DNA of 64,000 nucleotides from Tubulanus polymorphus (taxonomy: Eukaryota; Nemertea; Palaeonemertea; Tubulaniformes; Tubulanidae): NCBI RefSeq assembly GCF_964204645.1, contig NC_134034.1, forward strand, positions 6,941,414 to 7,005,413, in the 5' to 3' direction. Shown one piece after another: positions 15,671-52,620 of this stretch. The stretch's first letter is position 1, and every line of letters starts with the position of its first letter. The notes beneath the pieces are model-generated. The model searched no databases, was not told the DNA's origin, and worked only from the letters and a program-made list of their open reading frames with translations. Both the position numbers and the translations under genes were made by a program.

Positions 15671-15681
15671 TACATGCAATA

Positions 15682-15875
15682 TGAGCTTTTGCGCGAACTG
15701 TTACTCGCGCGAGCATTCTACGAATTCAGCGCTTTGCGCGAGGTGAAACTATCGACGGGAGCCGTTCGAGTACGCGAGCTTTAAATCACCACTCCGCCCC
15801 GTTCGAGTGCGCAAGCTTTAAACCACCACTCCGCCCCGTTCTAGTACGCAAGATTTTTTGAGAACATTTTCATAC
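15682..15875 (+). repeat. Left terminal region of KDZ element 1, GCGC-rich
   Basis: Contains TTTTGCGCGAA, the palindrome CTCGCGCGAG (15704-15713) and GCTTTGCGCGAG. Two to three imperfect copies follow of a unit of about 40 bp, CGTTCGAGTACGCGAGCTTT / CACCACTCCGCCC. One variant has GAGTGCGCAAGC. Its inverse counterpart is at 23080-23285. TGCGCA and GCGC words resemble half-sites of the NRF1 motif (TGCGCATGCGCA). This may matter because the element encodes an NRF1-like protein. Confidence 0.7.
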
Positions 15876-16658
15876 GCAAATACGATATTCAGATATTTTA
15901 TGAACATGTTTGATGAACATTTTACGCCTAAGTTGCACGGATTTAGGAAAACCCACAACCATGTATATTCATGATGAATCATCATAGGCCTATGACGGTA
16001 CTACAAGTAATGCTGAGATCGTCTCAATTGACTGACGGATTGACGGATTGCCATAAAAACAGCAATTTTTATTTCCCCATCTTACTTTTCTGCAAGAAGT
16101 CATAAAAATTATCTTCGTGCATATATATTTGAAATTTTGAATAATGCGTTATATAGAAAAATGGTTTTCATTTAAAAAATAAAAAATAAAAAACCACCGT
16201 CCTCGACATTTCCAACTAAGCCGCGAGTTTTCAGTATTTTTAACTTACACAGCTCGTAGAATCGTATATATGTTAATCGTGGAATCAAGATGCAAATTGT
16301 GGTGAATTTTAGTGGGAACTAGACGCCATGATGAATCATTTAACCCTCTAACTTGATTAGTCATTCTTGTATTTGGCTCGGCGAACTAATTTAACAAATT
16401 AATCCTAAACAAAAAGACATATTTTGCAAATGTAGTGGGAACTACTAATTTTTAATAGCCGCCGCCGCAAATTGTGACTGAATGATTATGCCCCTAAATG
16501 CGTAATTAGATTAAACCATACATTGTCATCTCTCCCTGATTTTCAATATAAATTCTTAAGCCTTGAATTATAAACCTTAATATACATTCAACCTTCCAAA
16601 CGAAAAGACTACATTTTATAGCTCCTTGAAATACATTCCAATACGTACACGTGTGATA

Positions 16659-18850
16659 ATGAATGCTGCGGCGCGTAAGGCATGGCAACAGGTCGAAAAA
16701 GCAGTTAAAAGATACGCAGAGGTTACCAAAAACGAAGTTGCAGCTTTGTGTTTTTTTGGAAACCAATCTCAAAAGATTGAGAGTGTTTTGACTGGGACTA
16801 GCGATTTAATGCAGGAATTAAACGAAAAAAGTGGCGAAATCTTGGAGAATATGAATAAAAGAAAAGGTGATGACCGTGATGGAGTGATATTGTCATGTGA
16901 AAAAATTTGCCTGCCGGATGTGAAGAAAATTTATGGAAGATCGTTATGCGATTTGAACAGCAATGAAGTTCGAGGATTTTGCGCTAATTTAGTATTCACG
17001 AGCAGAAAACTCTTAGGAAGGATAGCTAACAATCCGAAATGGGGTGACGAATCGCAACGTTTACCCTGGTGGCCTGAAACACTGGAATGGAAAAATCCCC
17101 GGTGTGATTTCAGACCAAAAAATCAGCGTGATATAACATTTGCAGAAGCTATACGCAAAGTTTGTGGAGCTGCTTATCAGTTCCATGAAGTATCTCAACT
17201 AACCGGTAAGAAGTTTTTTATGTAATAATATTTAATGACATTATTTTTTTCATGAGGCCTTTCATTTAGTTCGGACAATTAGAATACATATAATTAGTAT
17301 CTTCAAGAAGTGATATAAAAGCGGTGGATAAATTTAATTAATATCATAAACATATTTACCTGTGAACCTAATTTAGCAAACTAAGGGAGCAGTGAGATAT
17401 AACCATCGTAAATTTAACTATACGCATTTAATTTTAGACTGCCTTTTTCATGATCAAAAAAGTTGGTCTCAATATACATGTAACAATGTTGAAATATATG
17501 TCCACTTCTCAACAGGCAATGACATTACAGCAGAACTGACACCGCCTTTTTCATGATTAAAAAAGTTGGTCTCAATATACATGTAACAATGTTGAAATAT
17601 ATGTCCACTTCTCAACAGGCAATGACATTACAGCAGAACTGACACGGCTTTCAGAAAATTCGTCATTCGTTTCTGTATTACCAGCACCAGTTGAATTCGC
17701 AGATGTACCAGAGACTGAATTCGCAGATGTACCAGAGACAAGTAAGTAACACAGGAGACTTGTTTGACATTAGTTGGGCTATTTATTCTAATGTTTTGGA
17801 TGTTCAAATAATAACTAAAAATTCATTCGAGAAAATTATAATTTATTATTTACATTTGAATTCTATAATGATTTAAAAGGATGAGGAAAATACCCGTACA
17901 GAAAAAAACATAATTTTTACATTAGCAATTGCTGGACAAAACTTTATTGGTATATTTAACTAATAATGTAAATTATTTCTTTGTCTACGTTTTTCAGCCA
18001 AAAGCTCGTCATGTAACACAAGTGCTGTAAATCATCTGCCTCAATCATCATTTCAACTCAGCAAGTCCATGATTATAGAAACAATTGAAAATGGCAACAT
18101 AAGTGACATCTTGAAGCTGAACGTAACAGAAATATCAGGTAAATGAATACACTAATGCCTAATAACATTTTTCCAAACTGCAGCAAGATATTCTTTACAG
18201 TATATACAAATACATTTTTCTGAATTAACCTTCAAAAATCTAAAGTTCTGATCTATATACATGTCGATATTCTACTGATTATAAAAATGTATGAATTCTA
18301 TAATGAAAATAATGTAAATTATTTCTTTGTCTACGTATTTTATCCGAGAGCTCGTCATGTAACCCAAGTGCTGTCAATCATCTGCCTCCATCATTTCAAC
18401 TCGGCGAGTCCATGATTATGGAAACAATTGAAAATGGCAACATAAGTGACATCTTGAAGCTGAACGTAACAGAAATATCAGGTAAATAAATACATTAATG
18501 CCTAATAACATTTTTCTTCAAAAATCTAAAGTTCAGATCTATATACATGTCAATATTTTAAAAATTATAAAAATGTATGAAATAATAAAATTCAACTTAT
18601 GAATGAAATTATCAATTAAATAATTGTATGAGTTCATGAAATAATAATTTTCTAAATAGCCAGGATGAACGAATATGATGGACCTGAAATCCTAAGCCGC
18701 ACAACAGATGATGTTTATGAAGACAGTAGCTCGAAAGGTGATAAAGCCGTCAGCAAAACATCAATAACAACAGAAACTAAACGCCCTAACAGGAAGAGGA
18801 AACCAACAGAGAAAATGTCCGAGTACTTGAAGAAGCGCAAAGTTCTGTAA
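16659..18850 (+). CDS. NRF1/EWG-like accessory protein of KDZ element 1
   Basis: Four exons fit with canonical splice sites: 16659-17205, 17619-17741, 17998-18138 and 18660-18850. All introns are phase 1 and they give 333 residues without a stop. Residues 1-182 hold a domain with WGDES, PWWPETLEW and NPRCDFR, then an amphipathic stretch FAEAIRKVCGAAYQFH. This matches in order the WG-E-S...WWP-[DE]-[IV]-W-N-R-D-R...A-R...Y--H signature of the NRF1/Erect wing/P3A2 DNA-binding domain. The C terminus is basic (RPNRKRKP and LKKRKVL), a likely nuclear signal. An AATAAA lies at 18862. An alternative in-frame TTG start at 16626 exists, but the ATG at 16659 gives the homologous N terminus (compare element 2). 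The likely role is a DNA-binding partner of the transposase, possibly recognising the GCGC-rich ends. This is inferred. Confidence 0.75.
17441..17646. repeat. 103-bp tandem duplication over an intron/exon junction
   Basis: GCCTTTTTCATGATCAAAAA... through CAGAACTGACACC (17441-17543) is repeated at 17544-17646. Each copy includes the acceptor CTTCTCAACAG and the first 27 bases of exon 2 of the NRF1-like gene. Only the second copy continues into the rest of the exon, so two competing acceptors exist. Confidence 0.9.
17963..18620. repeat. Tandem duplication of exon 3 with flanking intron, period about 343 bp
   Basis: The segment beginning TAATGTAAATTATTTCTTTG is repeated from about 18308. It carries a second version of exon 3 (about 18349-18481) that keeps the donor (ATATCAG|GTAAAT). 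Its acceptor is changed from TTTTCAGCC to TATCCGAG, and the first exon bases are missing. The second exon copy is therefore probably skipped. Divergence is visible (for example TCGGCGAGTCC versus TCAGCAAGTCC). Confidence 0.85.
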
Positions 18851-18929
18851 ATACATGTATCAATAAAACAATTAAAATATTCATATTTCCTTGATGTAAT
18901 AGAATCAATATTTGAGGAAAGGTACTTTA
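18851..18929. promoter_or_regulatory. Shared tail-to-tail 3' region with poly(A) signal
   Basis: The plus-strand NRF1-like gene stops at 18850 and has AATAAA at 18862-18867. The minus-strand KDZ gene stops at 18930. Only 79 bp separate the stop codons, so their 3' UTRs should overlap. No canonical minus-strand AATAAA is seen in the gap. Confidence 0.6.
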
Positions 18930-21900
18930 TCACGACGATGCATTAATCTTCTGTTTCTTATCTTTATTCTTTATTGTTAAAAACAAAGCAATGTTACGAA
19001 CAAAATTTTCAGGTTTCATGTATGAAAGCTGAGCTTTTAACCTTACAATGCCAGTATTAGCTTGTTCATTGATTTGAGTATTAATGCTGTGCAGGTCAAC
19101 ATTGGACTTGTATGTATCTATCTTGTAACCTTCACAGCATCCAACATGATTCTTCCAATGCAAACGGTCAACACAGAACATAGTATGTAGAAAAAACTGT
19201 GGTTCCCTAAAAATCATGTAAAAAGAAAGTAAATACTTTAAGAAATAGAATTATTTCTAAATAAGGTCACGTGCAATGAGATATTTTACTATTGCGATTA
19301 CAATTATTTGTTTTAAAAAAACATACCGGTTCAAGCTATACTGATGTAGGCGACAGGCATTGTCATATACAATAACTTTCGGAGCTTTTGCAAATCTTGT
19401 TTTGAAGATGCTAAAAGGGTGCCTGGGAGATTCATGACTCTGCATAACCTAATTAATAAAAGTGGATAGTTTATTTCATACATGAGTGTAGTTAAAAATT
19501 ACACTGTCCAATTAAGTTAGGCATTAATAACTTTAAAACCCACTGTATACATAATTTAAGATGCAATAATAAAAATAAATTAAATAATAATTTGTTTTTA
19601 ATCTTAAATCTTGTATGTAGTAGGTTTGAAACTTATTATCTGTTCTCCACATTTGAGTGGTAATTCTACTATTAAGTTAAACACATACCTGGAAACCATA
19701 GTTAACACCATGCGAACAGAAAACTGTGAAGATGCCCGAAGTTAACACCCAGTGAGTTTTTGCATACTTGTTACAACTATCACCTCTTCTACATTTAACA
19801 CGGTCATTCTTTGCATCCATTTCGTAGTTTCCGTCTCTAAAATAATGAAGGGTCAAATAAATCAGGTATATTTAGAATACAATTTTACTTGTTGCATAAT
19901 TACAGATTCACTAATTATTACCTGTGTAGTTTTGGGAGACAGGGAAAAAAACTTAATGTATTGAACAGATCTTCATTTGTTGATTCCCGCAGCACATGCT
20001 TGGGATTATCAGATACCTGCAAGAAAAAGTAAAGTTCATGCTATCATTGAGTTAACTAGTTTTTCAATTTATAATTTTTAATTTATAATCACATAATGTA
20101 CCTGGAAGCAGACTTTGGCACGTTGAATAAGATCCTTCAGGAAACCAATACAATACTCATCTAATCTACCAGTAGATACTGATATTCTGAATGTAGTTGT
20201 GTATAATAGGTGCACATCTTATGAGCTCGCCTATTTCAGCATGGTTTTCGCTTTAAAAAAAATCAGTTTCAGCAGAAAGACATCTTTCGACTAGAGCAGC
20301 TGTCTGTATGAAGTTCGTTGACTGCACAACTGCACAAGCTGGTCCATTGCATGATAACGCTTTTAAAAGTTCTTGTTCCTCTGGGAGAGCATTATTGTCA
20401 CCATTCCTTTCAACAAGAAATTTCAGATTAGATAAGTGTGGAGTTTTCCCAAGAATATTAACCAACTCCTTCTTTTGGGTATCAGTATGCGGGACTGGAG
20501 TGTGTGGTGACTGCTTTGTTTTGTCACTCAAAATAGGTCCACCAGCATACTGGCACAACAAATTCCGACATTTAGCATTAGGCATGAACACTCTATCATC
20601 ATGTTTGCTCCCAGAAATCACAGGACTATCTGCAGATATTATAGGCTGAACATCTTGCAATGAATGGAGCAAATCCTTACGAAAACCGAGATCTACACCA
20701 TCGCATATTACCACGGTTGGGTAATCTTTACTAAGTGGACAACGAAACTCTGATGTCAAGTTGAAATCGAGAAGTCGCATGAATGCACTCCAACTCTTTT
20801 GCAATGTGTGCAGCGGTATTGCTGATGATCCGAGTAAAATATTTGCGGATCTTTCCATGCTTCTGGAATAAATACACAATCCGAATGAAAATGTCTGGTT
20901 ACTTTCTCCATTAGTTGTTGTATATTATTGAAAGTTACTAAATAAACAAACCCCAACTACCCTTGATATGATGACAGGGGATTTCTAGCCTCAGTCATGG
21001 CATGCAGATATTTGAACAACAGTCTGTAATCTACCAGTTGAAGTTATTAACATTCAACAGTAATTCCCTCTGTCCATCAAAGAAGAACTGACAATTACAA
21101 TCACCGATTGATGGTCGATAATACACTGCAAAATAAATATCATTACTTGAATATTAAAATAAATTTCATGCGATAAAGTTTAAAAATGTGTCAATACTTT
21201 AAATATATGTACATACAGGCTCGTACATACCATTAATTCTTTTCAAAACACCACCAAGCAATGCGAACTCCTGGCTGCCTGTTTCATTAAATACAGTGGC
21301 CTTTTTATCGAAACGCCAATTCATCAGAACAGGATCGCGACAATCCCACGAAAAATTATGAGTACATCTTGACTCTGCATCAAAAATAGGCACAAAATTC
21401 TCTGGGTATGGCATGCCATACATTCGGTTCTGTAAGACCATCTGCAGTTCAGTGGGTAGCGGATAAGAAATAAGATGACGTGACACTACCGACATGCTTG
21501 TGTGACTATGTGAAACATTTGATAACGGAGGCTGAGGTTGTATGCCCTTTTCATCACACCAGTCTTTATACATGTTAACATGAACACAATTTGAATTGTA
21601 TTTGCATGTTTCACAAATAAAATGCGCCATGCGACTGCTCCACTTAACAATGTTCACTGACTGTTGACAGGTAGCAGAAATTAATATAGGCGCTTGCGAC
21701 AGAATATGGATATCTGTACCATCAGCTGGCCACACACACATTTCTATATCCCTGTATAACATAGTTATGGCAAAGCAATGCTTGCAATAATTTGCTTGAC
21801 ACCGGACCTTAAACTGCGAGATTGCTTCCGTTAAATTTTTGTCCAATGACGATAATTGTTTCATGCGCCTGTATCCAACGGGACAGTTACAATTTAATAT

Positions 21901-22100
21901 CGAGCACTCTCCATCCGCCAAAAAGTATGGCAATTGGTTCTTTACAATGAAATGTTCGTTGCCATCTGCCAGTACAAAGACTCCAGGAAATAAATCCCAG
22001 TATTCTTTGTTCTTTCTTTAAGTCATCAAATATATCTTATTTTCATCCAACGGACATTCTATGTGTACGGTTGTGACACTTGGATTACTGAAATAAAAAA

Positions 22101-22158
<58 letters not shown>

Positions 22159-22674
22159 TACTAAATATTAAAAATAAATAAATAAAACATTTTTAAGTTT
22201 AAATTCAATCATCCTGGTTTCTACATGTTTTACTCAAAATCAAACATGAAAAATGAAAAAAGAAATACATGCGTGAAATTTATGTCATCACCGAGGTCAT
22301 TATTTCGGATAATCCCTTCGAGCTGAGCGAGCGAGCGCTCGAACTACGACGACAACGCCCCCAATCTGCCTCTTTCTGTTTATCATTTGATTTCTATAAG
22401 TCACAGAGGAAGGCTAAAACGATCCTATTCTGGATACAGTTAAATTTCTGGTAAGTTGATTCAATATAGCTACAAACCTGGTTTTATTTTGTTGCGAGCG
22501 CGATTTCAATGACATTGACAATGATTGGCTTTCTACTCCACCGGTCGTTGTCGTTGTTGTTGCATCATTGCCACCTTGCTGACGATTTTCAACAAATAAT
22601 CCTCTTCGACGACGTTTCTTGCACAGCTGCTTTTTCTCCTCTAATTTATTCATATAAATATCTAAAGTATGCAC
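18930..22674 (-). pseudogene. KDZ-superfamily transposase gene, element 1 (inactivated)
   Basis: Exons run right to left: 22674-22478, 22087-21231, 21125 to about 20949, about 20945-20102, 20016-19922, 19836-19689, 19448-19327 and 19206-18930. Canonical sites and matching phases fit most junctions. The N-terminal half is Cys-rich (NCNCPVGYR, CKHCF, CETCKYNSNC, CTHNFSWDCRDP, VYYRPSIGDCNC), a CxC-type cluster of the kind that precedes KDZ domains. The KDZ core follows: CDGVDLGFRKDLL, CNGPAC, LTSGIFTVFC, VYDNACRLHQY, FCVDRLHWKNH and INEQAN. The presumed catalytic acids sit in CDG, YDNAC and NEQAN. Lesions are a TAA in frame at 22018-22020, a frameshift near 21030 (after NVNNFNW), and a damaged junction near 20945. 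The last exon lacks the intron that element 2 has at NH-G|CC. The gene is inactive, but the C-terminal core is intact. Confidence 0.85.
22107..22155. repeat. AT dinucleotide microsatellite
   Basis: Roughly 24 AT units inside intron 1 of the KDZ gene, next to the acceptor of its second exon. Confidence 0.95.
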
Positions 22675-23079
22675 ACGGAGACGTGACGTTCACGCCGTTT
22701 TCTTAGCTTGTGATTGTTAAGAGTGCCATAAACTGGCACGGCAGGCTTGTGTTGCCCTGTTAGCGGACTAGGCCAAATGATAAACTATTGAAACGAAACA
22801 ACGGTATTGAAAATAATTAACATTTTATGACTAAACATTTACCATTTGACATTTTTGTAAACAGATAATTCGGAAAGTTACCGGTCCTATTAACATCTAT
22901 ATCCAGCTCTTATAACAGGTCAGTGAAAAAAAAACATCGTTGGTTTCGTTTTCAGATTTTACGCTCCGGTAAAACTTTAGATTTTTCGTATGCTATTGTA
23001 GACCCAGAAATGTCATATTTGATTCGGAGACACGGTCAAGTTTTTATCATGGATTAATTTCATCCTTTCAAGTTGCAAA

Positions 23080-23285
23080 CCACGCACGAACGCTCACTCA
23101 CTCGCGTACTCGCTAACCACACTCCGCGCGATCGAGTTCCGAGAAGCCTTCTCACTTCGCGCGCTCGAGCTTCGAGTAGGCCTTCTCACTTCACGCGCTC
23201 AAGCTTCGAGTAGGCCTTCTCACTTTGCGCGCTCGCGCAAAGCCGAATGCTCGCACGAGTAACTCTTCGAGCAAAACATCAAAAC
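23080..23285 (-). repeat. Right terminal region of KDZ element 1, GCGC-rich
   Basis: The inverse counterpart of 15682-15875. Three imperfect units of about 38 bp (GCGCTCGAGCTTCGAGTAGG / CCTTCTCACTTCGC) are followed by the exact palindrome TTTGCGCG-CT-CGCGCAAA (23224-23241). Then come ATGCTCGCACGAGTAAC and TTCGAGCAAAACAT, the inverse of the left end. The palindrome has two outward TGCGC half-sites, resembling a spaced NRF1 site. Confidence 0.7.
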
Positions 23286-23311
23286 GATACCCATTTTATA
23301 GCTCTATATTT

Positions 23312-23580
23312 GTATAGAGCCCATCAGCATGAGAAAAAAGTTTGGTTGATCGGACTCAAGATGGCTGCCCTCTGACCTTTTTTGGGCCCACAATGTCAGT
23401 TTTGGCCTGAATTCTTGGACCTGTTGCTTCCTAATGATTTGCCAAATTATTCCTAATGATTTTTCATTGAAATTTGTGATGGGCATTCTATGAAAAGAGG
23501 TCTTTAATACACCAAACAGGTATTTTCGATCAGCCAATTGGCATGCAATTGGCGGCCATCAAAGTGTCATCAGTACTCAT
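23312..23580 (+). mobile_element. Helentron-like family A, right half of the split copy
   Basis: It resumes family A at GCCCATCAGCATGAG, continues with GATCGGACTCAAGATGGC, GACCTTTTTTGGGCCCA and the CAATTGGCGGCCATC region, then decays after about 23580. It lacks the 155-bp modules and the 3' hairpin. Confidence 0.7.
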
Positions 23581-25319
23581 TTGTTGATTGAAAAGGGTTT
23601 GTCGAGGAAAATAGTATTTGTATGATTGTTGTAAGTTTCAAGGTCAGATTTCAGTAAGGTCAATGGGATCCTTAATGTTGCAAACCAATATCCTCTAATA
23701 TTACGTCCATCACGTCGCTTTAGAGGGGTCCGTAAAAGGGCGCTGTTTTAGCTTAAAAGTTAAGACTGGGTGCCTGTCAAATTCTGCATCCCCTGCATTC
23801 GTGGTCATAGGTTACAGTTGCTATGAAACAATTTCAGTGAGGTCCAAATATTTCTCCAAATATATCCCAGCGAGAAAACCTGGTTACTATTTATAGTAAA
23901 ATTGAAAAAATTCTGTTTTTTTTTAAATACCGCAATTCCGCAATATGACAGCACCGAACTTTTGGTGCGCTTTATGAATAGCAAACGTTTGGCAAACTAA
24001 TAGATTTGATTAAGAACAATGAAATTAGCTTTGTTAGATAGATTTTAAAACAATCCTTGGTGAAATAAGCAGTGTAAGTCGGATATAATTTAACAGTTTC
24101 CAGTCTCCTTTAATCCTCTCAGAAGTTGTTAAAGATTCCTAAATTCTCTCTGGTGTATAGCGTTGATGCTGTTATACACAACCCAAAAACATACGATGGA
24201 TAGCCAGCAGTAGAGGTGCGAATATGGTGAAGGAATGATGTTGGTTTATAGATTTTATATATAGGCTATAAGTACTGAGTTCGGCAAAGATGACTCTTGA
24301 TTGCGCTGCTGACTGGCGGCTGCAACCGCGATGCATAGGCTATATAGGTCAATGATCCAGTTATTTAATTTTACTGATTTAAGTAAGACAAATGAATTAT
24401 TTTTTTCTATAAGTCTGATCCCATGCTTTTACTAAAGCATCATTTGGAAAGTAAATCTCAAAAAGTAGGAATTAGAGAGCATTTAACCTAGAGGCTTTCA
24501 GTGATGTGAAGCTAGAAACAGGGATGATTGGAAAAGAATTGAAATGAATTTTGGGACGATTTTAGCATTGGTTGACGTCTGTTATGTCATGCAAATGCTA
24601 GTAAAATGGATCAAAAGTTGTGGTAAAAAAAAAGGCGCCGACTCTTCTCATTTTCATAGTCATTTCAAATTGTAACTCCATTCTCGTAAAACATTAGACA
24701 CAGCTGAGAATGACTCAAAATAATGTAACGGTTATTCCCTACAAAGATAGCGTCACCGGATTAATTGACCCAAAAAGTAAGGTTATTCTATTTCATTTTT
24801 TTCGTTAGTTATGTGGTAGACGAGCGGGGGTTAAGCAATCGTGTAGTGATATGTCCGCATCGACATTGGCAGTAAAGAATGGGGAATGGCCTCTTTTGAA
24901 TAGAAAAACATAAATTTATGTTACCCCGGTATATTAATATCATAGTCTTTAAATATCACTGTTATTCCTCCTATCAGAAACAATGAGATTAATTGGGATT
25001 AATTCTCAGCGGCAGAATACATATTTCTAGAGTGGAATGGTTGGCCTACTCATGTCTGAAACCCGTGTAGGTAAATTATGTGATCGCGCAGGAATGCCTT
25101 TACTGAAGTTGAAACAATTTCATGATGACACAAAACATCAAATGGTAAACAGTACTACCCAACCATGATTCGATATCACCAATAAAGATAGATTATTTAT
25201 TCAATTTTACCAGAGTTGTTTATTGGAGGAAAATATCATTGTTAACTACGCCACGAACAACCATGTTGTGTCATCAATCATTTGACTGACATTTTATTGT
25301 AAAATTCCATCGGTTCCGC
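23581..25319. other. Intronic DNA, no gene supported
   Basis: Mostly unrecognised sequence. A dispersed segment at 24555-24735 recurs inverted at 56370-56545. A phrase at 23870-23930 (GAGAAAACCTGGTTACTATT, TATAGTAAAATTGAAAAAATT) recurs in altered form at 28780-28845. Confidence 0.4.
24555..24735 (+). repeat. Dispersed repeat D, copy 1
   Basis: Contains AGCATTGGTTGACGTCT, AGTAAAATGGAT and AGTTGTGGTAAAAAA, then GGCGCCGACTC. Its inverse at 56370-56545 matches over at least 170 bp with scattered changes. Confidence 0.75.
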
Positions 25320-26205: not shown

Positions 26206-29640
<3,435 letters not shown>

Positions 29641-36174: not shown

Positions 36175-36480
36175 AAATCAGGTGTTCACGTGAATCCGCG
36201 GTATCGTCTACTGTACTGTTTTACTTCCGGGTTTTATTTTAAGATTTAAAATTGTATTTCAAGATCGATTTCTATGAAGTCTTTAGTTGATTTGGTGTTT
36301 GGGAGGAATTTTTATTTGCTCTACAGAAAATTCATCCTTGACAATTGCGCAAGGTTCGCGAAAAAAAGGATTTACCAAATCGGGTGTATGACCTTGATAT
36401 GCTAATTAGCCATGTGCCCGAATTGCAAATTCAATCAAATTTTATTCTGCCAAAAAATGTTAAATACAATTCGCTTTCCG
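36175..36480 (+). mobile_element. Dispersed repeat B, downstream segment
   Basis: Reads CAGAAATCAGGTGTTCACGT, ACTTCCGGGTTTTATTTTAAG, AAGATCGATTTCTATGAAGT and GACCTTGATATGCTAATTAG, matching 54250-54520. Confidence 0.75.
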
Positions 36481-39024: not shown

Positions 39025-39026
39025 TT

Positions 39027-39400: not shown

Positions 39401-39428
39401 TAGATTATTTATATTTAAAAATCTAACT

Positions 39429-39600: not shown

Positions 39601-39873
39601 GTGAACCATAGGTTTGCCTATGCAAACGGTCTGATGAAGCAGTTTTCATTGAAAATGAATAGAGTACCGGTGTGTCAACAAGGCACAAACATTGGCTGTT
39701 GAACCAATTGTGTTGATTTTTGGTTTCATGCTTTGGCTTAATGAGTTCTCGAGCCCACAAAAATTTCATAGTGATCGAGTTATTTTTAGGAGACTTATTC
39801 TTGAAAAACACGCAAAAACCCTGCTTTTTGATGGGTTTCGTCGTCAGACGAACCCATCTATGGCATCGTCGTC

Positions 39874-39900
39874 ATGTCTGTCTGTCTGTCTGTCCGTCTG
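39874..39900. repeat. CTGT tetranucleotide microsatellite
   Basis: (TCTG)n follows GGGTTTCGTC-GTCA-GACGAACCC, a small near-palindrome at 39833-39855. The pair looks like the end of a dispersed repeat. Confidence 0.85.
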
Positions 39901-40909: not shown

Positions 40910-41809
40910 TCAGGTGCCTTTCCCAAAGCGTTGGTTGTTTTTTGTTTTAATTGCTGCGATAATACCAGGAGTTATCCATGGTTTATGGAATGAGGGATTA
41001 GTATGATTAACTGGTACCAGAGGGAAAACTTGATTGAAAACTAAAGAAACTTTTTCAATGAAAGTAGTGTAAGCAACTGAGGGATTATCAGATGAATACA
41101 CTTCACTCCAGTTAATATTCATTAGTAATCTGTTGAAATTAGAAATATTGCGCTGCGAGAAAATTCTAGTTTTAAAAGGTTGTCTGTCAGATAGAGGCTG
41201 ATCACCACTGCAGATAGTAAATATTGGGTAATGATCCGGAAGGTCGGTCATAAAAATCCCAGATTTGTGAACATGTCGCAAATCGTTACAAAAAATATTG
41301 TCAATTAAGGATGTCGAGTCACAAGTTACTCGAGTTGGCTTGTCAATCAAAGGTGAAAAAGAATGAGAAAATAAAGATTCGAGAAATATTTCAGTATGTT
41401 TGTGCGTATCATATTTCATGAGATCTATATTAAAGTCCCCCACAAGGTAGCAAAGTTTGTTCTCGCGAATAATTTCTGCCGTTAAAACTTCAAATTCATC
41501 TTGAAAAATTGGTAATTTTCCTCCTGGAGGTCTATATATTACTCCAATAATAATATTGGATTTTTTATCTAAAACAATTTCGATGAATAAAGATTCGAAA
41601 GTATGATTCCTAGTTGATAAGTCTGTCCGTACTTTGAAATTGAAATTTTCCTTTAGGAAGAGAGCTACGCCGCCACCAAGTTGACCATTGGCGCGGGATT
41701 TAAAAATACTCGTGTAACCGTTAATTCTATACAAATTGGATTTAGAATTATTGGAATTAGTCCAAGTCTCGGTCATGATATTTGAATGCCAAAATAAATG
41801 CCTGGTCAA
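40910..41809 (-). pseudogene. LINE endonuclease domain fragment (non-LTR retrotransposon)
   Basis: A 299-codon frame with the apurinic-endonuclease fold of LINE ORF2: MTETW, GGGVALFLKE, FIEIVLDKKSNIIIGVIYRP, YLVGDFNIDLMKYD, PTRVT---TSLIDNIFCND and the DHYPIFTI catalytic Asp-His motif. The order and spacing fit the CR1/L2-like clade of invertebrate LINEs. The frame ends before any reverse transcriptase, and the sequence beyond (40905-40860, minus) changes to an unrelated stretch with GAGTTCGAATCCC. It is therefore truncated at both ends. The catalytic residues GDFN and DH are present. Confidence 0.9.
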
Positions 41810-41999
41810 ATAAATTAATATTTGTGATTGTATGTCCGCGTATGTTCGGTTTCAAAGCTGAATCATATTTGACGTTTACACAGCATATTAGGTTCGAATC
41901 TGTCAATGCATTTATTCTATGTATCGATATTTCAATTTACTACAATTCCCATCATTCTGAATGGCTTTGCAGAAAACCCGTCATCGCTGCTTGGCAGCT

Positions 42000-42765: not shown

Positions 42766-43008
42766 ACATTTTCCGATTTCTTCACATCACAGGATCACTG
42801 AGGCTACACTGTGGTGTTTTCATATATTTTGCGTATCTTATGTCATGTATGGATGTATTATTGCCATGATCAGTCACCGTGTAACCATATCAATGAAAAA
42901 GAAATCAATATTTTATTCCTATGTCTCTGTACAAGACGACAATTTAAGTCAGACAGTCACAGACACACAATGGATAGATTTTCTGAGGACAAAAATTCTT
43001 ACCTAAAA

Positions 43009-43203
43009 ATGAAACGAAAAGCCAATTTTACTTCGAGTGAGCGTGTTATTCTAACTGAAATGGTGAAGGCTAATGAAGATGTACTACTTTCAAAACTAAC
43101 AAACACTGTAATGAATATGAAGAAACAGAAAATCTGGGAGTCAATTGCCGCTCAAATGAATCGTCTAGGTATCTGCGAAAGGACTGTTAGTGATGTGAAA
43201 GAT
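43009..43203 (+). pseudogene. Myb/SANT-like domain of a PIF/Harbinger element
   Basis: MKRKANFTSSERVILTEMV, then VLLSKLTNTVMNMKKQKIWE, then IAAQMNRLGICERTVSDVKD. This is the trihelix Myb/SANT-like DNA-binding domain encoded by the second gene of Harbinger transposons. The frame continues to 43398 but loses similarity after the KD, so the C-terminal part is gone. A degraded Harbinger transposase lies on the other strand 700 bp away, which fits the usual two-gene layout. Confidence 0.7.
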
Positions 43204-43879
43204 ACGGCTCTAACCAAATCGGAATTTGTTGTTGTGGCTCATATTCCATGTCGGGTTTTCCAAATTCTATGGCTAGATTATGCAACACAAAGCATGCCGC
43301 AATTCGTGACCACAACATTCTGGTTTCAATTGCAGTTCACCATGAAGAACCTGAAAATTATGTATAGAAAAATTTGTATCCTATTTCTCTATAGTTGATT
43401 TGATTGTCTGATAGAGTCTGAATCAGTTAATCAACTGCAATCAATTGTTTATCCCAATGAAGTACGTATCCGTGTTTTTCAAGAATATAGAAAATCGCAA
43501 TTTAATCGATGCATCGTAAAAACCTAAAATAAATGTAGTTCTTGAATAGTGGAAGTTGAATTCTAGTCATAGTTGCTTCCCAGTTATTGGGTAATTTGAT
43601 AATTACCAAAAAACGTTTTTTTTTTATTTCCCAAAAGCCATTTCAATTTGTACTCTTGATGTATGCGCTCGGTTGTTACGCTCCTGTCCTAGATTACTTG
43701 ACCGCAAATATGGTGTCAATAGGTATGATGAGCAACCATAGCCACTATCACAATAAACATTGCTCAAACAGGAGCCTGTCCACTTCGCTACAACATTGAT
43801 AAATGTACCTATTTAAAAGAAAGTTGATTTACTGATAAACTCGATACTGACAGAATAAACCAACAAACAAGAAGCAAAA

Positions 43880-44310: not shown

Positions 44311-44714
44311 ATCTGTTATTCGTGTGATATTTTTGGTTCGAAGAATGAGAACCTAAGCTATCGTCAAGTTGCAGTCATGAAGTCACGTGACAGGATCGGA
44401 AGATTTTTTTTTTTCAGATTGAGTGATATGCCTCAATGAAATAGGTCCACATACGTAATTCGCTTGTCTTAAGAATATTATAATTATCATGATAGATATA
44501 TTCAAATACTCTGAATAATATCATTTTCTAAAATCATGCGTAATGAATGCCAATTAAGCGGTTGGTTAAAACAAATCATTACATCTACTTGCGGATTGGA
44601 TATTTCAAATAAATCTCTAATTTCTTCTGTTAATTCATTTTCTACATGTCTTGAGCTATAAAATTCAGTGCTTTTTGTAAGTTGCTCACATGAGTTGCGC
44701 ATGAGCATTTCTAA

Positions 44715-44764
44715 GAATTGCTTTCTGCTCATGCTGAGCACTGTAAGCGGGCAGAAAGCAATTC
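44715..44764. repeat. 14-bp hairpin
   Basis: GAATTGCTTTCTGC (44715-44728) pairs exactly with 44751-44764 across a 22-nt loop. Confidence 0.8.
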
Positions 44765-45591
44765 GCAAGTTGCACGAAAAATATTTGTTGCATGCGGGAT
44801 TCGAACCTATTTTCGTAACCTGGTTGCAATAAATCTTTATTGAATTGAATTTGTCAGTCTGAATACCAGTCGTTGTTACGGTTCCGTACAACGTCTAACG
44901 CTAAAGTATCATATAGAGGTTAACTCCTGTTAATTGCAATGCAACAACTGATTTTAGTGTCAAATCAAACCTTTGTACTAAAATAAATAAATTAGTTACC
45001 TTGTTGACTTTGAAAACGTGTTTTATAATAAATTTTTTGATGATTTAAATCGTGAACCGGGGAATTTATTGATTTGATTTGAATTAAATTGATTGCCACT
45101 ATCGGGATTTCCAATACGGAATAAATTAATAAAATGTGAAAATTCAATATGTCTCTCTAAAATTACTCTAAATGTTATTTTTTGTTGATAAAACGCATAA
45201 ATTTTGGTCAATTTTAACCTTAATAATTTGAAACTAGAATAATATCTGCATTGGCATCAAGTTTAAGTTCGAATCCGTAATTTACACTCCCATCATGCAC
45301 CACGAAAAGCCGCCATATTTGTTATGTTGCTTCACTTCAAGTGTTTTTTGAAGCGTTTAGTCAAAAGTTTTGAGCTACTACGATCGTCAAAAGCTACTTA
45401 GGATTACAAATTTATGCACAAACAATAGCTAACTTCCATCTGATTACAGAACAGTCATTTTGTGGTAAGTTGATGGTGTTTTAAGGGGTGAAACAGACGC
45501 TCAAAGCCTCGTCCGTCAAATTGAGGGACGAAAATTAACCTTATATGAGAACTTTCGCCCTAGACGTTGTTTCAGGAACAACGGCTAGGTA

Positions 45592-46139
45592 CTAATGTCT
45601 ATTTATTAATGGATGAGACCTGTTTTTCTGGGATATTTTGCTTACTTTTTGGGGTACATACCTCATTTATGTCTTAACAGAATGCCAAAAGTCGTGGACA
45701 ACAACTGAATATCCGATATATTTCCAGTTCTGTACCAATTAGATGGATTGGCAAAAAGACTCCTAAAGTCCAGTTGAATGAGAGAGAAAATCCTCCATTT
45801 TGTGAAATTTCTTGAATTTTTACATTGTCACCATGCCTACAAAATGAAGTTATTTTTCTTGTGGGGTCTCAACAACTAAATCAGGGTGGCGTAGGCATGG
45901 TAACAATGTTCAAATCCAAGAAATTTCACAAAATGGAGGATTTTCTCTCTCATTCAACTGGACTTAATGAGTCTTTTTGCCAATCCATCTAATCGGTACA
46001 GAACTGGAATAATATCGGATATTCAGTTGTTGTCCGCGATTTTTGGCATTCTGTTAAGACATAAATGAGGTATGTACCCCAAATAGTAAGCAAAATATCC
46101 CAGAAAAACAGGTCTCATCCATTGATAAATAGACATTAG
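45592..46139. mobile_element. 548-bp foldback element (249-bp inverted arms)
   Basis: The left arm at 45592-45840 is nearly the exact reverse complement of the right arm at 45891-46139, with a 50-bp loop. Sampled along the arms I noticed only a few substitutions and one indel pair. There is no ORF. The outer bases are CTAATGTCTATTTA and inverse. No convincing target duplication is visible. It lies a few hundred bases outside KDZ element 2. Confidence 0.9.
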
Positions 46140-46479
46140 ACTATATCCGAGCAGAAGCTTCGAAGTCGTTGCACTACTACTCACGCAGAAAGGTTTTATC
46201 CATAGATAGATTTTCTTAGAATGCCTCGGCGATCATACAATATGATCGCTGGCACCGGAGTCGGAGATAGTGCCGGTAATCCAAAACCAAAAAATGTACA
46301 CCAGTCGCAGTTCTCCAAAAAAACAGTCGGCAACTACAACATCAACGAACGACAAACACACCGTCGTCATCAAGCAGCGACGTAATCATTGCGACATCTC
46401 TCCAGTAAGTTATTTTTCATCGCGAATCCTTGCACAGCACAGCATTTTATATATAGGCCTAATGCCGTAATGGCCTTAA

Positions 46480-46610
46480 TTACACTAGAAACTAGTTGCT
46501 GCTCATGTATACTTGCTCAAGTCAAGGCCATTTATGCACGCCGCTCATTTACCTGCTCAGGTATTTTAATTTTATGGGAGCTGCTCATGAAAGTTGCTCA
46601 GTGTCTACCC
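46480..46610. repeat. Left subterminal TTGCTCA repeats, element 2
   Basis: AGTTGCTGCTCATG, ACTTGCTCAAG, ACCTGCTCAGG and AAAGTTGCTCAGTG. The inverse words occur at 52430-52610. Confidence 0.55.
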
Positions 46611-46693
46611 TAAAGATAAAAAATACATCTTACTTGTCTATAATGAAAAAATTTCCATGAAAATAATATGTTGATATGTGATTAAATGAAAGG

Positions 46694-46822
46694 TTTCACA
46701 TCACATGGACCTGACAAAAAAAAATTGGACCCCAGTATCCTAGGTACTATACGTCTTTTTATATATAGTACCTAGGATACTGGGGTCAAAATTTTTTCAC
46801 GTCATGTCCCTGTGTTTCACAT
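46694..46822. repeat. Short hairpin element with 24-bp perfect stem
   Basis: 46728-46751 (GACCCCAGTATCCTAGGTAC...) is the exact inverse of 46764-46787, with a 12-nt loop. Outer flanks (TCACATGGACCTGAC / GTCATGTCCCTGTGTTTCAC) continue the pairing loosely. It is a MITE-sized insertion inside the first intron of the element 2 transposase gene. Confidence 0.75.
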
Positions 46823-46872
46823 CTATTGAAAAATGAATATATTTCTCATGTCCGTTCTCTATTTTCTTATAG

Positions 46873-48687
46873 GCATATTGACACCGTTCTTGCAGTTGAC
46901 TTGGAATTGGGTCTGCACGTGTATTATGTAGGTGAACTGAAGAAGACTCATCGCCATTGGAACGTAAACAGCCAAACGTATATTGTAGCCGATAGCAATG
47001 ATCAAGGAACTATTCTGAAAGATGTGCATGTTGTTTTGTATAGTTTACAGTTTTTCTGTGTTGGAGAGGGATTTAAAGTGTTAACATGTAGCTGTAAGAA
47101 TGCACTCCTCAGCAGAAATCAACTTCTTACTCAGCAAATATGGACACCTTAACCCGCTCAAAAATATAGTGTCCGCTTCAAATTCATTAAATTGTAAATC
47201 ATCCGAGACAAAATTCCTGCAAGCAATCAGTGCCAACGGTCCAGCATGTGCTCTTCTACAGACCAATGATTTGGATCGCGTCATAGATATGTTGGATCAC
47301 GCGCTGTCCGAGATAACTGAAACATTTGATATTAAGAATTCAGAGATACTTAATCAGCTACTGATAGATGCACCTATACTGATTGAGTTTATCAGTCAGA
47401 GTTTATCAGATGATAATCTGCATAATGACTACATTGATTTGATGAGAGAACTTCTGAAGAAAATACAAGCTTGTTTTAAGGTAATGAATTTTTAATGGAT
47501 GATAATTTCGAGAAAATGTGAGGAGTTTTTGTTACATCAAATACATATTTTAGATAATACCTGATGAGCTTATGGTCTGATTTACTTTTGATTGCAGTGC
47601 AACAAGGATCATATATACACACCAGCTCCATACGAAAATCTTTTCAAGAGTTTGTCACTAACCTAATTAATTGTCCGAGTTAACCTAAACACCACAGGTA
47701 ATGAATACTTTCTGTGATTAGGATGATTTATTGATTTAGTAATGGTATTATTAATGTAATTCAGTTCAACATGTTTTTCCATTTGTCAATGTGATATATA
47801 AGTGCAGATATGTTTATTCAGTGATGCAGCATATGTAATGGATGATAAGAAGGATAATGACATGTGCCGGGATGATGCCTGTAATAAGATGTCAAAACGC
47901 CACAGGGTTCTTACACCAGAGATTTTTACTGTGTTTTGTCCGCATGGAAGTTGCTATGGATTTCAGGTGAATATAGTCATTCAGTAGAATTATTTTTTTT
48001 AAAATCAATTACCTCTGTTAATTCGTTTGTACATTGTATTATAGGCCATGGAGTCTCATGAATCGCCACGATTTCCATTTTCAATATTTAAGACAAGATT
48101 CACCAGGCCACCGTCTATGATCGTGTATGATAATGCATGCAAGCTGCATCAATATGCTCTTAATAGGTAAGTATTTAGGCAATTGGCCCGTGCACTTATA
48201 TTTGACCATAGAAATATTAACCAAATTCATAGATAACGGATTACCTGTTATCAAGATACTAAAGAGCTCAGTCCCAAGTGGTAGTGATTAACCGAGGTTG
48301 ATTGTTATTGAAGTAAGTTCATTAATTATTCTAATTACAGAGAACCAGAATTTTTCAAGAACACTATATTTTGTGTGGACAGAATGCATTGGGTAAATCA
48401 TACAGGGTATGTATTATCTCGTGAATTATATCTTTCATCACCTCATCTACTTGTCATGTATATATGTATCTAATTTTTTTCCATTTTGTAGGTGTTGTGC
48501 TGGCTATAAACTAGACACTTACTGCAGCCATGTGGATCTTTCCAATATTAATTCACAAGTGAATGAACAAGCTAATTCAGGACTTATTCGCCTGAAAAGT
48601 CAACTTGCTTACATGAAGCCAGAAAACTTTTTTCGGCATGTAGTATTTCTGGTCCTTAAAAATCAGGATAAAAATGTAAAGTTGTAA
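46873..48687 (+). pseudogene. KDZ-superfamily transposase gene, element 2 (internally deleted)
   Basis: Exons: 46873 to about 47098, about 47099-47480 (fused to the previous by a deletion), 47598-47697, 47808-47966, 48045-48166, 48341-48406 and 48492-48687. The first segment (HWN--QTYIVADSN, VLTCSCKN) aligns with element 1 exon 2. Then the reading jumps, out of frame, to the region before ISANGPACAL. The whole Cys cluster and first half of the KDZ domain, over 1 kb in element 1, are missing. The remaining core is well kept: LTPEIFTVFCPHGSCYGF, MIVYDNACKLHQYALNR, FCVDRMHWVNH and VNEQAN. A TAA interrupts the short exon at 47664-47666. A possible first exon ending at 46404 is in phase, but would lie outside the putative left end. 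Confidence 0.82.
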
Positions 48688-49215
48688 AAAAAATTTGAAT
48701 CTGAAATATGTATTGTATCATAACACATTTACCAGATTTCAATATGCCTACCTGAATTGTCCTGTATTTTGCCACAAATTTCTTTTTGTAAATAATATAA
48801 TTAGTTAAACATGGAATATTTTTGTAAACTCGAAATCGAATAAGACATTAGCTCAAAAGGAAACATTTCTGACTTATTCTTAATCATTGTGGGATTAGGC
48901 CATACAAAGAAATACCTTTGTTTCTCATCAGCCCTTTTTGGAAAAGTGACGGGCCTTAATCCAAATTCAAATAGTGAAAAAAAAACGAAAACATTTCTGC
49001 ATGAGGGATGCGCATTTTAATTTTTTACTGACAAACTTTTTTTGACACGCTCAGAAAATGAAACTGATCAAGCACAAGCAATATTTTTTTATGAATTGTC
49101 GCTGCAACATGAATACCGTAGAGTGTTTCTTCAAGATTATGTCTCTATGTTATCACTTGATGCATATTTGTCCACGGTATATTTGTTCTGCAGTGTTATA
49201 TTCTACAATGATTAC

Positions 49216-50145
49216 ACCATGCAGGGTCCCTACAGGTCCTTGATTCCTTGAAAACTCCTCTAAACCAAAAATGTTTTTCAAGGTCCTTGAATATCATTTA
49301 ATTGGAGCAAAATGCCCTAAAGTCCTTGAGAACTCCTTGAATTTTGAGAAATTGGCAATGAGAAAATGTTTAGGTTACAAGTGTTTTCCAAGATTAGGCC
49401 TAGTTAGTAGTCATAGGCCCTATACACACAGTCTTTCACCAGCTAATTGTAGTATGATTAATACATAGTGTCTGCTATGCTTCTCATTGTATCTCTTGGA
49501 CATAAGAACTATGTTCAGAATTGTTCAGCATTATTTAATTAAGACTGCCTGGTTGGGAAATTAGTACTGATTAGCGGGTCGGTTATTTTAATCAATCAGT
49601 ATTTTCAAGGGTTTAAAGTGTTGCTTCACTATTAGTTGAGACAGTAATTATGTATCACTTGAATATATCAGGCTTTATTCGGTACACATCTACACTATCA
49701 TATTCTTCAAAATGCCGCGTGGAAACTGTATTTAATGATAACTGGCTTCAGGATCCAGACCTTAAGGATTGGCTTCTGAAAACATATGATAAACGTTTTG
49801 CAAAATGTTCAATCTGCGAATTTTAAGTTCATTTCTGTACATCTTTGTTTACGTTTGTAATTGAACAGAAGAGATACACTACACCTAAATCGGTACTGTT
49901 GGAACTAGGATTTTTTCACTCAATTAGACAGTTAGAAATCAAGCGTAGTAGGGTAAAAGATAAAAATTTGCTTATACAACCACCAAATTACCGGTTTATC
50001 AAGATAAGCAGTACCGTTTTAGGACCGTAATTTGGATATGAAAATGATGCAGACACTCGTTCAAATTTGAAATTTTATCCTTCAGAAGTCCTTGAATTCT
50101 AGAATGATTGATCTGTAGGGACCCTGCCATGGTGTGTGTTTATAT
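49216..50145. mobile_element. MITE-like insertion with CAGGGTCCCTACAG termini
   Basis: The left end ACACCATGCAGGGTCCCTAC (about 49213) continues into CAGGTCCTTGA; the right end is the inverse, GATCTGTAGGGACCCTGCCATGGTGT (in parts, about 50112-50140). Near the left end, CCTTGA/CTTGAAA words recur (AAGGTCCTTGAATATCATTT, AGTCCTTGAGAACTCCTTGA). The style recalls a widespread 'GGTTCCCACAGGTCCTTGAAA' DNA-element family in animals. It lies between the two KDZ-element genes and replaces the 3' end of the NRF1-like gene. Confidence 0.65.
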
Positions 50146-52028
50146 GCTGATAAGAAAAGAAAGCAAGCATTTGTAAGCAAGCAATAACTATATTGATCAA
50201 AAAGTTTCAAATACTCATATACATCGAATTTTGAATATTTACATGTCTGACAATTAAAATTTAACAATTCGTCGACATTTCCCTTCCATTTTCTTCCATT
50301 CCTCCATTCTTTTGGTAACCTTTCGGGCACGACTTTGGCAACATTCTGAGTGCTGTTGGACAAATCTCTAGTCACATCTGTTTGAAAAAGAAATGAAAAA
50401 TATGAGCAAACACATAAACTGCAAATTTCTTGTTTTCTTTCTGATTATCTCATCCCTCTTAAGGATATAATTTCAATTTACCTGCAGGAATACTGTCCGA
50501 ATGTGCATGGTTCTGAATATTGTCACAAATCATAGTAGTATTCGGAGTATGTAGCGAACCATCAGCTTGTTTCTCTTCACTATATCTATTTTCTATTTAA
50601 ATAACAGAATAATTACTGAATAGAACAATCATTCAAGGGAAGCTGTTTTGTGACGTTTTCATTATCAATTTAAAATCAAAATAAGACTTACCAGCACTTT
50701 CCGCCAGTAAGGATGAAAAATACAAGTCCATTAAATCACTTGCATTATTCACTGCCTCTATGATTTTAGAAACATCTGAAAATGGAAATAGGCACAAAAT
50801 TATCTACAAGCAAAAACCTACTGGCAAAAAATATCAAATATGAATCGGAAAAATAGAAACAATCTAAATTATTTTGAGAATGTAATATATACACAATAAT
50901 GGGTACATGAATTCACTAATAGCATCAATAATGCATATTACTTTTATACTTACTACCAATATCCAAGTTATCAATTTCAGTGGCTTCGGATGTCGAATTT
51001 AGAGGCAAAATATACGTCTCATTACTGGTGCTGGTTGGGAAGTCTTCAACTGAAGTATAAAAGTACAAAAAAGTATTAAACTATAATTGTAGAGGTTGTT
51101 ACGTAATAAACTATAGGTTGGCAAAACAGCCAGTTTCACTAAGTTACTGCAATATATGATTATCAAATAGATGTTATTTAATTTAAGCATATAATTTTTA
51201 TTACATACTTAACGGAGTAGCGGGGTCACTGGGGATTGCATATGTACTGTTAATATATGTATATGCAGCATCAACGGTTGTAGCAGAGGTGACATCATTG
51301 CTAAGACCATTCTCATCACCTGCATAAATAAGAAATGAAATAAGATTAAAATAATGTTTTGTGATGATGGTGGCCTGTCTGTTCAGGGAGGTTCCCTGTT
51401 TTTGTTGATGGTAATGGCCTGCAAGTTATCATAAATCATAAAATTTAATAGACTTACCAGTAAGACTCAATACATTATGATATCTATATGCCGCAGTGAT
51501 TATTCTGCGACACACATTTGCTGCTGATTCTCCCTCATTTTCTGATGCATCTCTTTTTTCACATCTCGGATTTAGCCACTCGCAATCCACTGGCCACCAT
51601 GGTGTTCTTTTACTCTCATTTCCCCATCGAGGCAATTTTTCAGCTTTTGGATTGTCCATCAATTTGGATATTAACACCACAGTTGGAATTATCACCAACA
51701 AATCTGTCAGTGGTAATCGGGACAGTGGTTTCCCATAGTCGATCATTATGTCAGGTAACTTGAACTCCACTACTGGAGCAGTTATACATTCCCCTGGAGG
51801 TATTACCGTCACTGAAGTTAATCCATTGGCAATAGACTTGGCAATAATGTCCTTGTTCTCCTCGAACGCTGCGCGCATTAATGGCGATCCAACAATTCCT
51901 AGTGTTTTTGTTTGGTTATTTTATCTGTGTAAAAAAAAAACAGCTCCAGCATCCATGGATGTGTCCTTCACATACGAATTTACACCTTTTACAATGCGGT
52001 TAACTGCACGGTGCGTAGCGGTATCCAT
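50082..52028 (-). pseudogene. NRF1/EWG-like accessory gene, element 2 (interrupted)
   Basis: Exons: 52028-51458, 51319-51209, 51049-50954, 50775-50692, 50592-50482 and 50377 to about 50150. Every intron is phase 1, as in element 1. Exon 1 encodes LPDIMIDYGKPLSRLPLTDL, then RWGNESKRTPWWPVDCEWLN, PRC, and an ANVCRRIITAAYRYHN helix. This is the same NRF1-type signature, with a closer fit to the family upstream of WWP than element 1. Lesions are a TAA at 51921-51923 (codon 36), next to a homopolymer run, and loss of the true C terminus to the MITE (the frame runs on to 50082 through its terminal repeat). Exon 4 (VSKIIEAVNNASDLMDLY) aligns with element 1 exon 3. The N-terminal stop is the only break in the domain. 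Confidence 0.75.
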
Positions 52029-52429
52029 CATTGATAATTAAATATATACGTGTCCACGACAAAATAAGTTTTCCGACTGATATACCTCACTGAAGCAAGG
52101 CTTTTATACATATTATCATCTGATTGTTTAAAGTAAACTGTATACTAGTCAGTATACTAGTGTGGAGGCAAATTAATGAAATTTATATTTTAGGGTGACA
52201 TCAGTCTTAGGGCAATTAGGGGAAATTTGATAGGGACTTATGGCTAATTAGGGAGTGAGCTTTAAGAGTAAGTAAGTAGGCTAAATTAGTCTAAAGCAAA
52301 TTAGAGACATCTATATTTTAGAGTAAAATTAGTCTATACAACGTTATAGAAAGTTGAATAGTTGGTGTAGTTAAGTTTAAGATTTGGTAGCTTGATAGGC
52401 CTATTTAATCATTTTTAGAATGTATGAGC

Positions 52430-52610
52430 AACTTGAAAAACTCTTTCAGTAGATGTGAGCAACTTTCAAAAACCCTACACTGGCTCACCTCAGTAAATGT
52501 GAGCAACTTTTAAAAACCCTACACTGGCTCACCTCAATAGATGAGAGCAACTTACAAAACCCAAAAAATGCTCACGAGCAACTGTATGAGCAAGTTACAA
52601 AAATAGGCAG
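52430..52610. repeat. Right subterminal TGAGCAACTT repeats, element 2
   Basis: TATGAGCAACTTGAAAAAC, GTGAGCAACTTTCAAAAACC, GTGAGCAACTTTTAAAAACC and GAGAGCAACTTACAAAACCC, with a shared spacer CTACACTGGCTCACCTCA and a period of about 60 bp. Confidence 0.8.
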
Positions 52611-52620
52611 TTTATACACC

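Follow-up and report, generated by a model that had tools for sequence, protein, structure and literature searches.

The window analysed here is a 64,000-nucleotide stretch of the genome of the nemertean Tubulanus polymorphus (NCBI RefSeq assembly GCF_964204645.1, contig NC_134034.1, here contig C10). It contains two DNA transposons of about 8 kb each, and in both a multi-exon transposase gene of the KDZ superfamily lies tail-to-tail with a second multi-exon gene, whose product resembles the transcription factor NRF1. Element A occupies positions 15661–23304 (7644 bp) and element B, in which the transposase has decayed, positions 44653–52622 (7970 bp). An earlier note on this DNA had described two divergent KDZ transposons with this convergent two-gene design, and both gene pairs are indeed present, tail-to-tail and within target-site duplications (TSDs). 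All genome searches reported below were made in this one assembly, which comprises 268 Mb in 77 contigs.

In element A, the first coding exon of the NRF1-like gene (16659–17205, + strand) is open and is followed by a GT splice donor directly after ...SQLTG. The corresponding exon of B (51458–52031, − strand) has its donor at the same position and carries an in-frame stop at 51921–51923. The Pfam profile PF10491 matched both exons, with E = 4.5e-12 and 46.6 bits for A and E = 1.8e-11 and 44.6 bits for B (51429–51911). Both scores exceed the curated cut-off of 23.5 by over 20 bits, which places the two proteins in the NRF1 DNA-binding family. In PDB searches with the NRF1-like exons, NRF1 chains were the only matches at E < 0.4, and a profile built from A and B retrieved, up to E = 1, solely the NRF1 chains 8k3d and 8k4l (4.3e-11 and 1.9e-10). 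An NCBIfam scan of the exons gave no match. The exons of A and B are 30% identical to each other over 199 amino acids (E = 6e-22). The motif WG...PWWP...W-NPRC...Y-[FY]H, from which an NRF1-type domain had been proposed in the earlier note, occurs in both genes, as WGDESQRLPWWP..W-NPRC..YQFH in A and as WGNESKRTPWWP..W-NPRC..YRYH in B. The PDB matches cover the DNA-binding domain and, for B, continue some way upstream of it. The Pfam matches cover model positions 54–206 and 72–208 of 213 and reach into the dimerisation region; their extent suggests that the NRF1-like proteins may possess such a region.

The later exons of both genes in A and B were predicted by eye, without transcripts. In A, the remaining exons of the NRF1-like gene are placed by their reading frames and splice sites within 17516–18850 (+), ending in a basic C-terminus (KRPNRKRKPTEKMSEYLKKRKVL) and a stop; in B, reading frames with splice donors point to further exons within 50200–51340 (−). 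Neither a Pfam domain above chance nor an activation domain was found in the C-terminal exons of A. Two internal tandem duplications lie in the NRF1-like gene of A at 17438–18486 (100% over 33 amino acids and 83% over 59 amino acids), and one of them seems to double a whole predicted exon.

In NRF1, according to the available part of PMC10810270, R206 reads the TG and N242 together with R244 reads the CGC of the half-site TGCGC. We aligned 17 of the 21 transposon copies found in the genome with host and human NRF1, leaving out the short copies L009, L017, L019 and L021. The equivalent of R206 is arginine in 15 of the 16 copies that reach this position; the sole exception is B of the window, which has leucine, and its siblings L014 and L018 have arginine. 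Asparagine occupies the position of N242 in 16 of 17 copies, the exception being L016, which is divergent there, and the equivalent of R244 is arginine or, in L007, L013, L015 and L020, lysine. Element A keeps R206, N242 and R244, B keeps N242 and R244, and the equivalent of W224 is also present. These alignments show that the motif reflects true homology, the residues that read DNA included.

The transposase gene of A (about 18933–22653, − strand) is multi-exon, with an in-frame stop at 22018–22020 and several frame breaks. That of B (about 46221–48684, + strand), likewise multi-exon, is missing about 1.4 kb of its middle in comparison with the sibling copy E14. The KDZ profile PF18758 scored 29.7 bits (E = 6.6e-7) against E2, a copy of A elsewhere in the genome; this is above the cut-off of 26.6 and places the transposase in the superfamily. 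Element A itself, with X at its frame breaks, scored 26.4 bits (E = 6.7e-6), just below the cut-off, and the B transposase alone gave no match to PF18758. The B and A transposases are 68% identical over the last 160 amino acids; aligned piece by piece, four C-terminal pieces are 60–75% identical and one middle piece 34%. The transposase of E2 does not have the in-frame stop of A, but about 0.2 kb of A's transposase is missing from it. Both copies in the window are probably dead.

Perfect 7-bp TSDs enclose both genes of each element: TATATTT at 15654–15660 and 23305–23311 for A, and ATGTCTT at 44646–44652 and 52623–52629 for B. The borders of A were fixed independently by E2 (C2:11.80 Mb), which sits inserted in another repeat; its long aligned pieces are 93–99% identical to A, and the similarity covers 15663–23304. 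It was through this copy, and not through blocks of terminal inverted repeats (TIRs) alone, that the TSDs were resolved. A relative of the repeat into which E2 inserted stands uninterrupted in the window near 54.76 kb, within an interspersed repeat at 54296–54870 (also at 36217–36456). For B, the sibling copies give the same limits: similarity ends at the borders or no more than 4 bp from them, in E14 on both sides and in E18 on one. A start of B near 46.1 kb, our first guess, was dropped when the inverted repeat pair 44672–44710/52603–52566 was found. The TIR of A on the side of the NRF1-like gene (15661–15718, +; CAGTATAGAAT...) aligns to the reverse complement of 23245–23304, the TIR on the transposase side (−; GAGCTATAAAAT...), with a best block of 87.5% over 32 bp. 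In B the TIRs lie at 44653–44710 on the transposase side (+; GAGCTATAAAATTC...) and at 52564–52622 on the side of the NRF1-like gene (−; CAGGTGTATAAACT...), with 84.6% over 39 bp between the ends. Both borders were read in seven elements. Exact 7-bp TSDs were present in six (A, B, E3, E4, E14 and a 953-bp derivative of A) and 6 of 7 bases agreed in E2; in all six two-gene copies read, the TSDs enclose both genes. The termini are alike among the copies seen, of the CAGGTATA type at the NRF1-like side and of the GAGCTATAAAA type at the transposase side. The TSDs and the shared borders and termini thus show that the two genes belong to a single mobile unit.

The 953-bp derivative (L077, 1497–2449; C9:9.73 Mb) has both A-type ends and a perfect TSD, AAAAGTG. 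It showed no match to the coding parts of A and presumably moved in trans. Two A-type ends of the NRF1-like side (L075 and L076, C5:10.575 and 10.581 Mb) lie in opposite orientation, 5.3 kb apart. Inside B, a near-perfect foldback at 45592–46139 has two 249-bp arms that are 95% complementary and 50 bp apart, and is perhaps a nested insertion resembling a miniature inverted-repeat transposable element.

To follow the gene pair through the genome, we searched with the NRF1-like exon of A and with transposase exons, which yielded at least 21 NRF1-like exon matches and at least 18 KDZ loci, the latter grouped from 28 matches of one search and one match of another. The earlier note had held that KDZ elements lacking the partner gene would speak against a stable association. 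Within this genome the claim withstood that test: 14 of the 18 KDZ loci and 14 of the 21 NRF1-like matches have the other gene no more than 10 kb away. Each of the 14 pairs shows the tail-to-tail arrangement, one out of four possible, and a further tail-to-tail pair has its partners 24 kb apart. Sorted by eye, the copies form about seven families. Identity to A is 27–40% for five other families (in an eight-row alignment, A3); for one more family it reaches at most 51%, measured over shorter matches. Pairing across several diverged families supports the earlier claim that the two genes have long persisted together. The splice donor right after ...L[T/A]G is at a common position in 13 of 13 copies checked. 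In-frame stops were found in 7 of the 21 NRF1-like matches, the other 14 being stop-free.

The view that the neighbourhood is a matter of chance, with host NRF1 paralogues lying beside KDZ insertions, has in its favour that seven of the 21 NRF1-like matches (the 24-kb case included) have no KDZ gene within 10 kb. Against this stand the TSDs (7 of 7 bases in five copies and 6 of 7 in E2) that enclose both genes in six copies, and the single orientation shared by every pair, so that we give chance practically no credence. Four of the 18 KDZ loci have no NRF1-like match within 10 kb; two of them, 9.9 kb each, were searched by tblastn with members of A3, and no convincing partner was found (best E = 0.007). 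Beside one NRF1-like copy without a detected KDZ gene (L070, C3:14.18 Mb) lies an open reading frame (ORF) with a resemblance to what we take to be the C-terminus of a hAT transposase. Protein database searches with the NRF1-like exon of A and with a transposase exon returned no relative; with A3 they returned one protein, from Tubulanus polymorphus itself, which contains the translation of the match at C1:16.09 Mb. Scans of viral and genomic contig collections also returned no relative.

The element ends carry subterminal tandem repeats: in A, two copies of a 37-bp unit (15762–15835, +) and four of a 34-bp unit (23113–23247), and in B, three copies of a 44-bp unit (52446–52577), each containing GAGCA (TGCTC when read on the opposite strand). 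Matches to the NRF1 site TGCGCNTGCGCA, allowing at most two mismatches, were found at five distinct places in the window, and four of the five are distributed one to each element end. Those of A, with two mismatches, are at 15802–15813 and 23228–23239. The best palindrome of the window (TGCGCATGAGCA, one mismatch) lies within the transposase-side TIR of B at 44696–44707, and TGCTCGTGAGCA lies within its TIR on the side of the NRF1-like gene at 52569–52580. To ask how specific this is, we compared all 1024 palindromic half-sites with an N2 spacer, using ends whose positions deviated by at most 21 bp from the borders fixed later. TGCGC-N2-GCGCA, with up to two mismatches, was the sole one present in all four 200-bp ends of A and B. 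TGCGC also stood alone when the ends were shortened to 150 bp or lengthened to 250 bp, but it shared its place with one AT-rich half-site at 300 bp; in ends of 60 or 100 bp it was present in three of the four. Replacing the N2 spacer by one of 0, 1, 3 or 4 bases left the TGCGC palindrome in two of the four ends at most. Dinucleotide shuffles placed the palindrome in all four ends in 0 of 3000 trials, in both ends of B in 6 of 5000 and in both ends of A in 128 of 5000. The count over the whole window is ordinary (8 against 5.3 expected, reached by 16 of 100 shuffles). What is unusual about the NRF1-type palindromes is their place, not their number.

We extended the comparison to eight 200-bp ends, the four of A and B plus four from three other families. 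TGCTC, which differs from the NRF1 half-site by one base, is found 41 times there, shuffled ends averaging 4.9 (0 of 2000 shuffles), and it is the only 5-mer found in the first 100 bp of all eight. TGCGC occurs 14 times against a mean of 6.7 (8 of 2000). Since E3_N and E3_K form an inverted repeat pair of nearly identical sequence, the eight ends are not fully independent. In this wider comparison the half-site TGC[T/G]C held up.

These observations lead us to favour the following reading, which we consider probable. The elements are two-gene KDZ transposons whose NRF1-family protein likely binds the TGC[T/G]C half-sites at the ends, as its conserved residues and the clustered sites suggest, and would in this way drive both promoters and aid end recognition; it is likely a self-encoded end- and promoter-binding factor. 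On this reading the protein is predicted to bind, as a dimer, the TGC[T/G]C arrays at both ends. Bound there, it would switch on both element promoters and would also mark both ends for recognition by the transposase. Because the genes converge, each promoter should lie just inside one end, so that one factor could serve both genes and both transposition substrates. The half-site would have drifted from the TGCGC of NRF1 to mostly TGCTC, and with this drift the element and the host would recognise different targets.

Several results weigh against this reading. The chief end motif is TGCTC and not NRF1's TGCGC, which is missing from two of the eight ends. The R244 of NRF1 expects G at the fourth base, and a changed contact must therefore be assumed; the lysine found at this position in four copies is a further departure. 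As a mark of all families the N2 palindrome was weakened, being present in five of the eight ends and tied third among the 1024. Scored by presence alone, the motifs are less striking: TGCTC was present in all eight ends in 6 of 2000 shuffles, TGCGC in at least six ends in 84 of 2000, and either motif in all eight in 93 of 2000. GCTCG is more enriched than TGCTC relative to the flanks (37 to 22 times) but is found in six ends, and GGCCG and GCGCG are more enriched than TGCTC relative to the element interior, in fewer ends. A single 200-bp bin inside element B, near 46.5 kb, also holds five TGCTC. The partnerless copies of both genes described above count on the same side. An AlphaFold2 model, made from a two-row alignment, reached a predicted local distance difference test score of 38.6, too poor for fold comparison. 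Finally, the transposase itself could bind the end motifs.

The NRF1-like protein might also be a transcription or anti-silencing factor only, comparable to VANC, which would keep the element expressed by binding the tandem motifs of the non-coding ends and would have no part in cutting or in the pairing of ends. The tandem repeats of 34, 37 and 44 bp in the non-coding ends would suit such a role, as the targets of VANC are often tandem repeats in the available part of PMC5735166. So would the behaviour of host NRF1, a methylation-sensitive factor that transactivates unmethylated mouse retrotransposons (PMC12420836). TGCTC itself is without the CpG of TGCGC, which agrees with an anti-silencing role, though 23 of the sites read TGCTCG and thus border a CpG. 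The best NRF1-type palindromes of B, however, lie inside its TIRs, where they also fit a role at the cut ends. We regard a purely transcriptional role as a possible account with appreciable support, though the less probable one.

The host's own NRF1 is encoded by a separate gene elsewhere, at C3:7.49 Mb; it matches human NRF1 at 69% identity over 65 residues, and no KDZ gene was found within 30 kb of the locus. The first exon of the transposon genes is continuous where host NRF1, by its reading frames, seems to be split by an intron. The NRF1-like genes of the elements are not NRF1 orthologues. The existence of a separate host gene leaves room for the view that the element gene is a functionless passenger captured from it; DNA transposons are known to capture host genes, for example TET/JBP in fungal KDZ elements (PMC12730594, available part), and stops interrupt a third of the NRF1-like matches. 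A useless passenger would decay, however, and two thirds of the matches are stop-free. The splice donor, the tail-to-tail order and the DNA-reading residues have all been kept across families that are 27–40% identical to A, and the element ends carry NRF1-like half-sites. We consider a passenger very unlikely.

In a tree built from 15 transposon copies and the host and human NRF1 proteins (L016 and L020 were too short to include), the two NRF1 sequences group together (support 100/99). Their branch is 1.36 changes per site long and lies next to the B/D families (86/87). The earlier note had asked whether the transposon proteins form a clade beside host NRF1. The long, well-supported branch does part the two groups; the tree is unrooted and its deeper forks are moderately supported. 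It is compatible with a single capture by the transposon and also with domestication in the other direction. In the latter case NRF1, a conserved regulator of mitochondrial and developmental genes in animals, would descend from a protein that bound the ends of an ancient KDZ transposon with two genes, and TGCGC would be a fossil of the transposon end, which we think rather unlikely; if true, present-day elements keep that protein at work on ends of the TGC[T/G]C type. A table in the available part of a paper on ascidians gives 0–3 Nrf1_DNA-binding genes in each of nine species (PMC8122590), so that as many copies as in Tubulanus polymorphus are not the rule.

The surroundings of the elements contain other mobile sequences. 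To the left of B, an ORF at 42940–43395 (+) encodes a Myb/SANT-like domain (PF13873, E = 5.5e-14) and may belong to another two-gene transposon, and 40913–41851 (−) encodes an endonuclease domain like that of long interspersed nuclear element retrotransposons (PF03372, E = 2.9e-8). Just left of A, at 15060–15480, short degenerate tandem repeats around ACCCGTCAAA were seen in the raw sequence. An Rfam scan of 15000–53000 gave no match.

PIF/Harbinger transposons belong to a transposase superfamily other than KDZ, and their DNA-binding partner has a fold other than that of NRF1. Like the elements described here, they are two-gene elements, for example Nuwa, with a transposase and a separate DNA-binding protein, there of the Myb/SANT type (PMC12730594, available part). 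VANDAL elements of Arabidopsis also encode a sequence-specific protein, VANC, whose targets are often tandem repeats (PMC5735166, in the part available), but VANDAL is a plant element. With Kyakuja, Dileera and Zisupton, the named KDZ branches, our elements share a multi-exon transposase with PF18758. In the available text of PMC12730594, Kyakuja has 7-bp TSDs and no TIRs, and Zisupton and Dileera have 8-bp TSDs. The TSD length found here, 7 bp in A, B, E3, E4, E14 and L077 and 6 of 7 bases in E2, is that of Kyakuja and not that of Zisupton or Dileera. Kyakuja termini are CA..TG, however, whereas those here are CAG[G]... and GAGC... and TIRs are present; the elements are thus nearest Kyakuja by TSD length, yet we assign them to no named KDZ branch. 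From the fungal KDZ elements with TET/JBP cargo they differ in that the partner is an NRF1-type DNA-binding protein and not a TET/JBP enzyme (PMC12730594, same part).

With NRF1, Erect wing and P3A2 (PF10491), the partner protein shares a homologous DNA-binding domain with equivalents of R206, W224, N242 and R244 (R or K). It differs from human NRF1 in being transposon-encoded and only 29–48% identical over the matched stretches, from host NRF1, which seems split by an intron, in its continuous first exon, and from the NRF1 family in an end motif that is mostly TGCTC and, in A, in that no activation domain was found. Two-gene DNA transposons with a DNA-binding partner, and cargo-bearing fungal KDZ elements, are already known (PMC12730594, as far as available). 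None of the literature matches listed describes, in its title or the abstract shown, an NRF1-type gene in a transposon, although a mention in the founding KDZ/Zisupton papers is possible, and a paper on transposon-derived metazoan factors mentions none of NRF1, KDZ, Zisupton, Kyakuja or nuclear respiratory. In its available part, PMC10810270 describes the DNA-binding mode of NRF1 as novel and without apparent evolutionary relation to its structural neighbour SRF.

Against this background, the direction of descent, from transposon to factor or from factor to transposon, becomes directly testable by a rooted tree. The transposon lineage carries the NRF1 domain and has diversified it within one genome, and so offers a set of natural NRF1 variants alongside the sites that they presumably target. 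KDZ, noted for its fungal TET/JBP cargo, gains an animal counterpart with a DNA-binding partner. And whereas host NRF1 switches on unmethylated mouse retrotransposons (PMC12420836, available part), here the transposon brings its own version.

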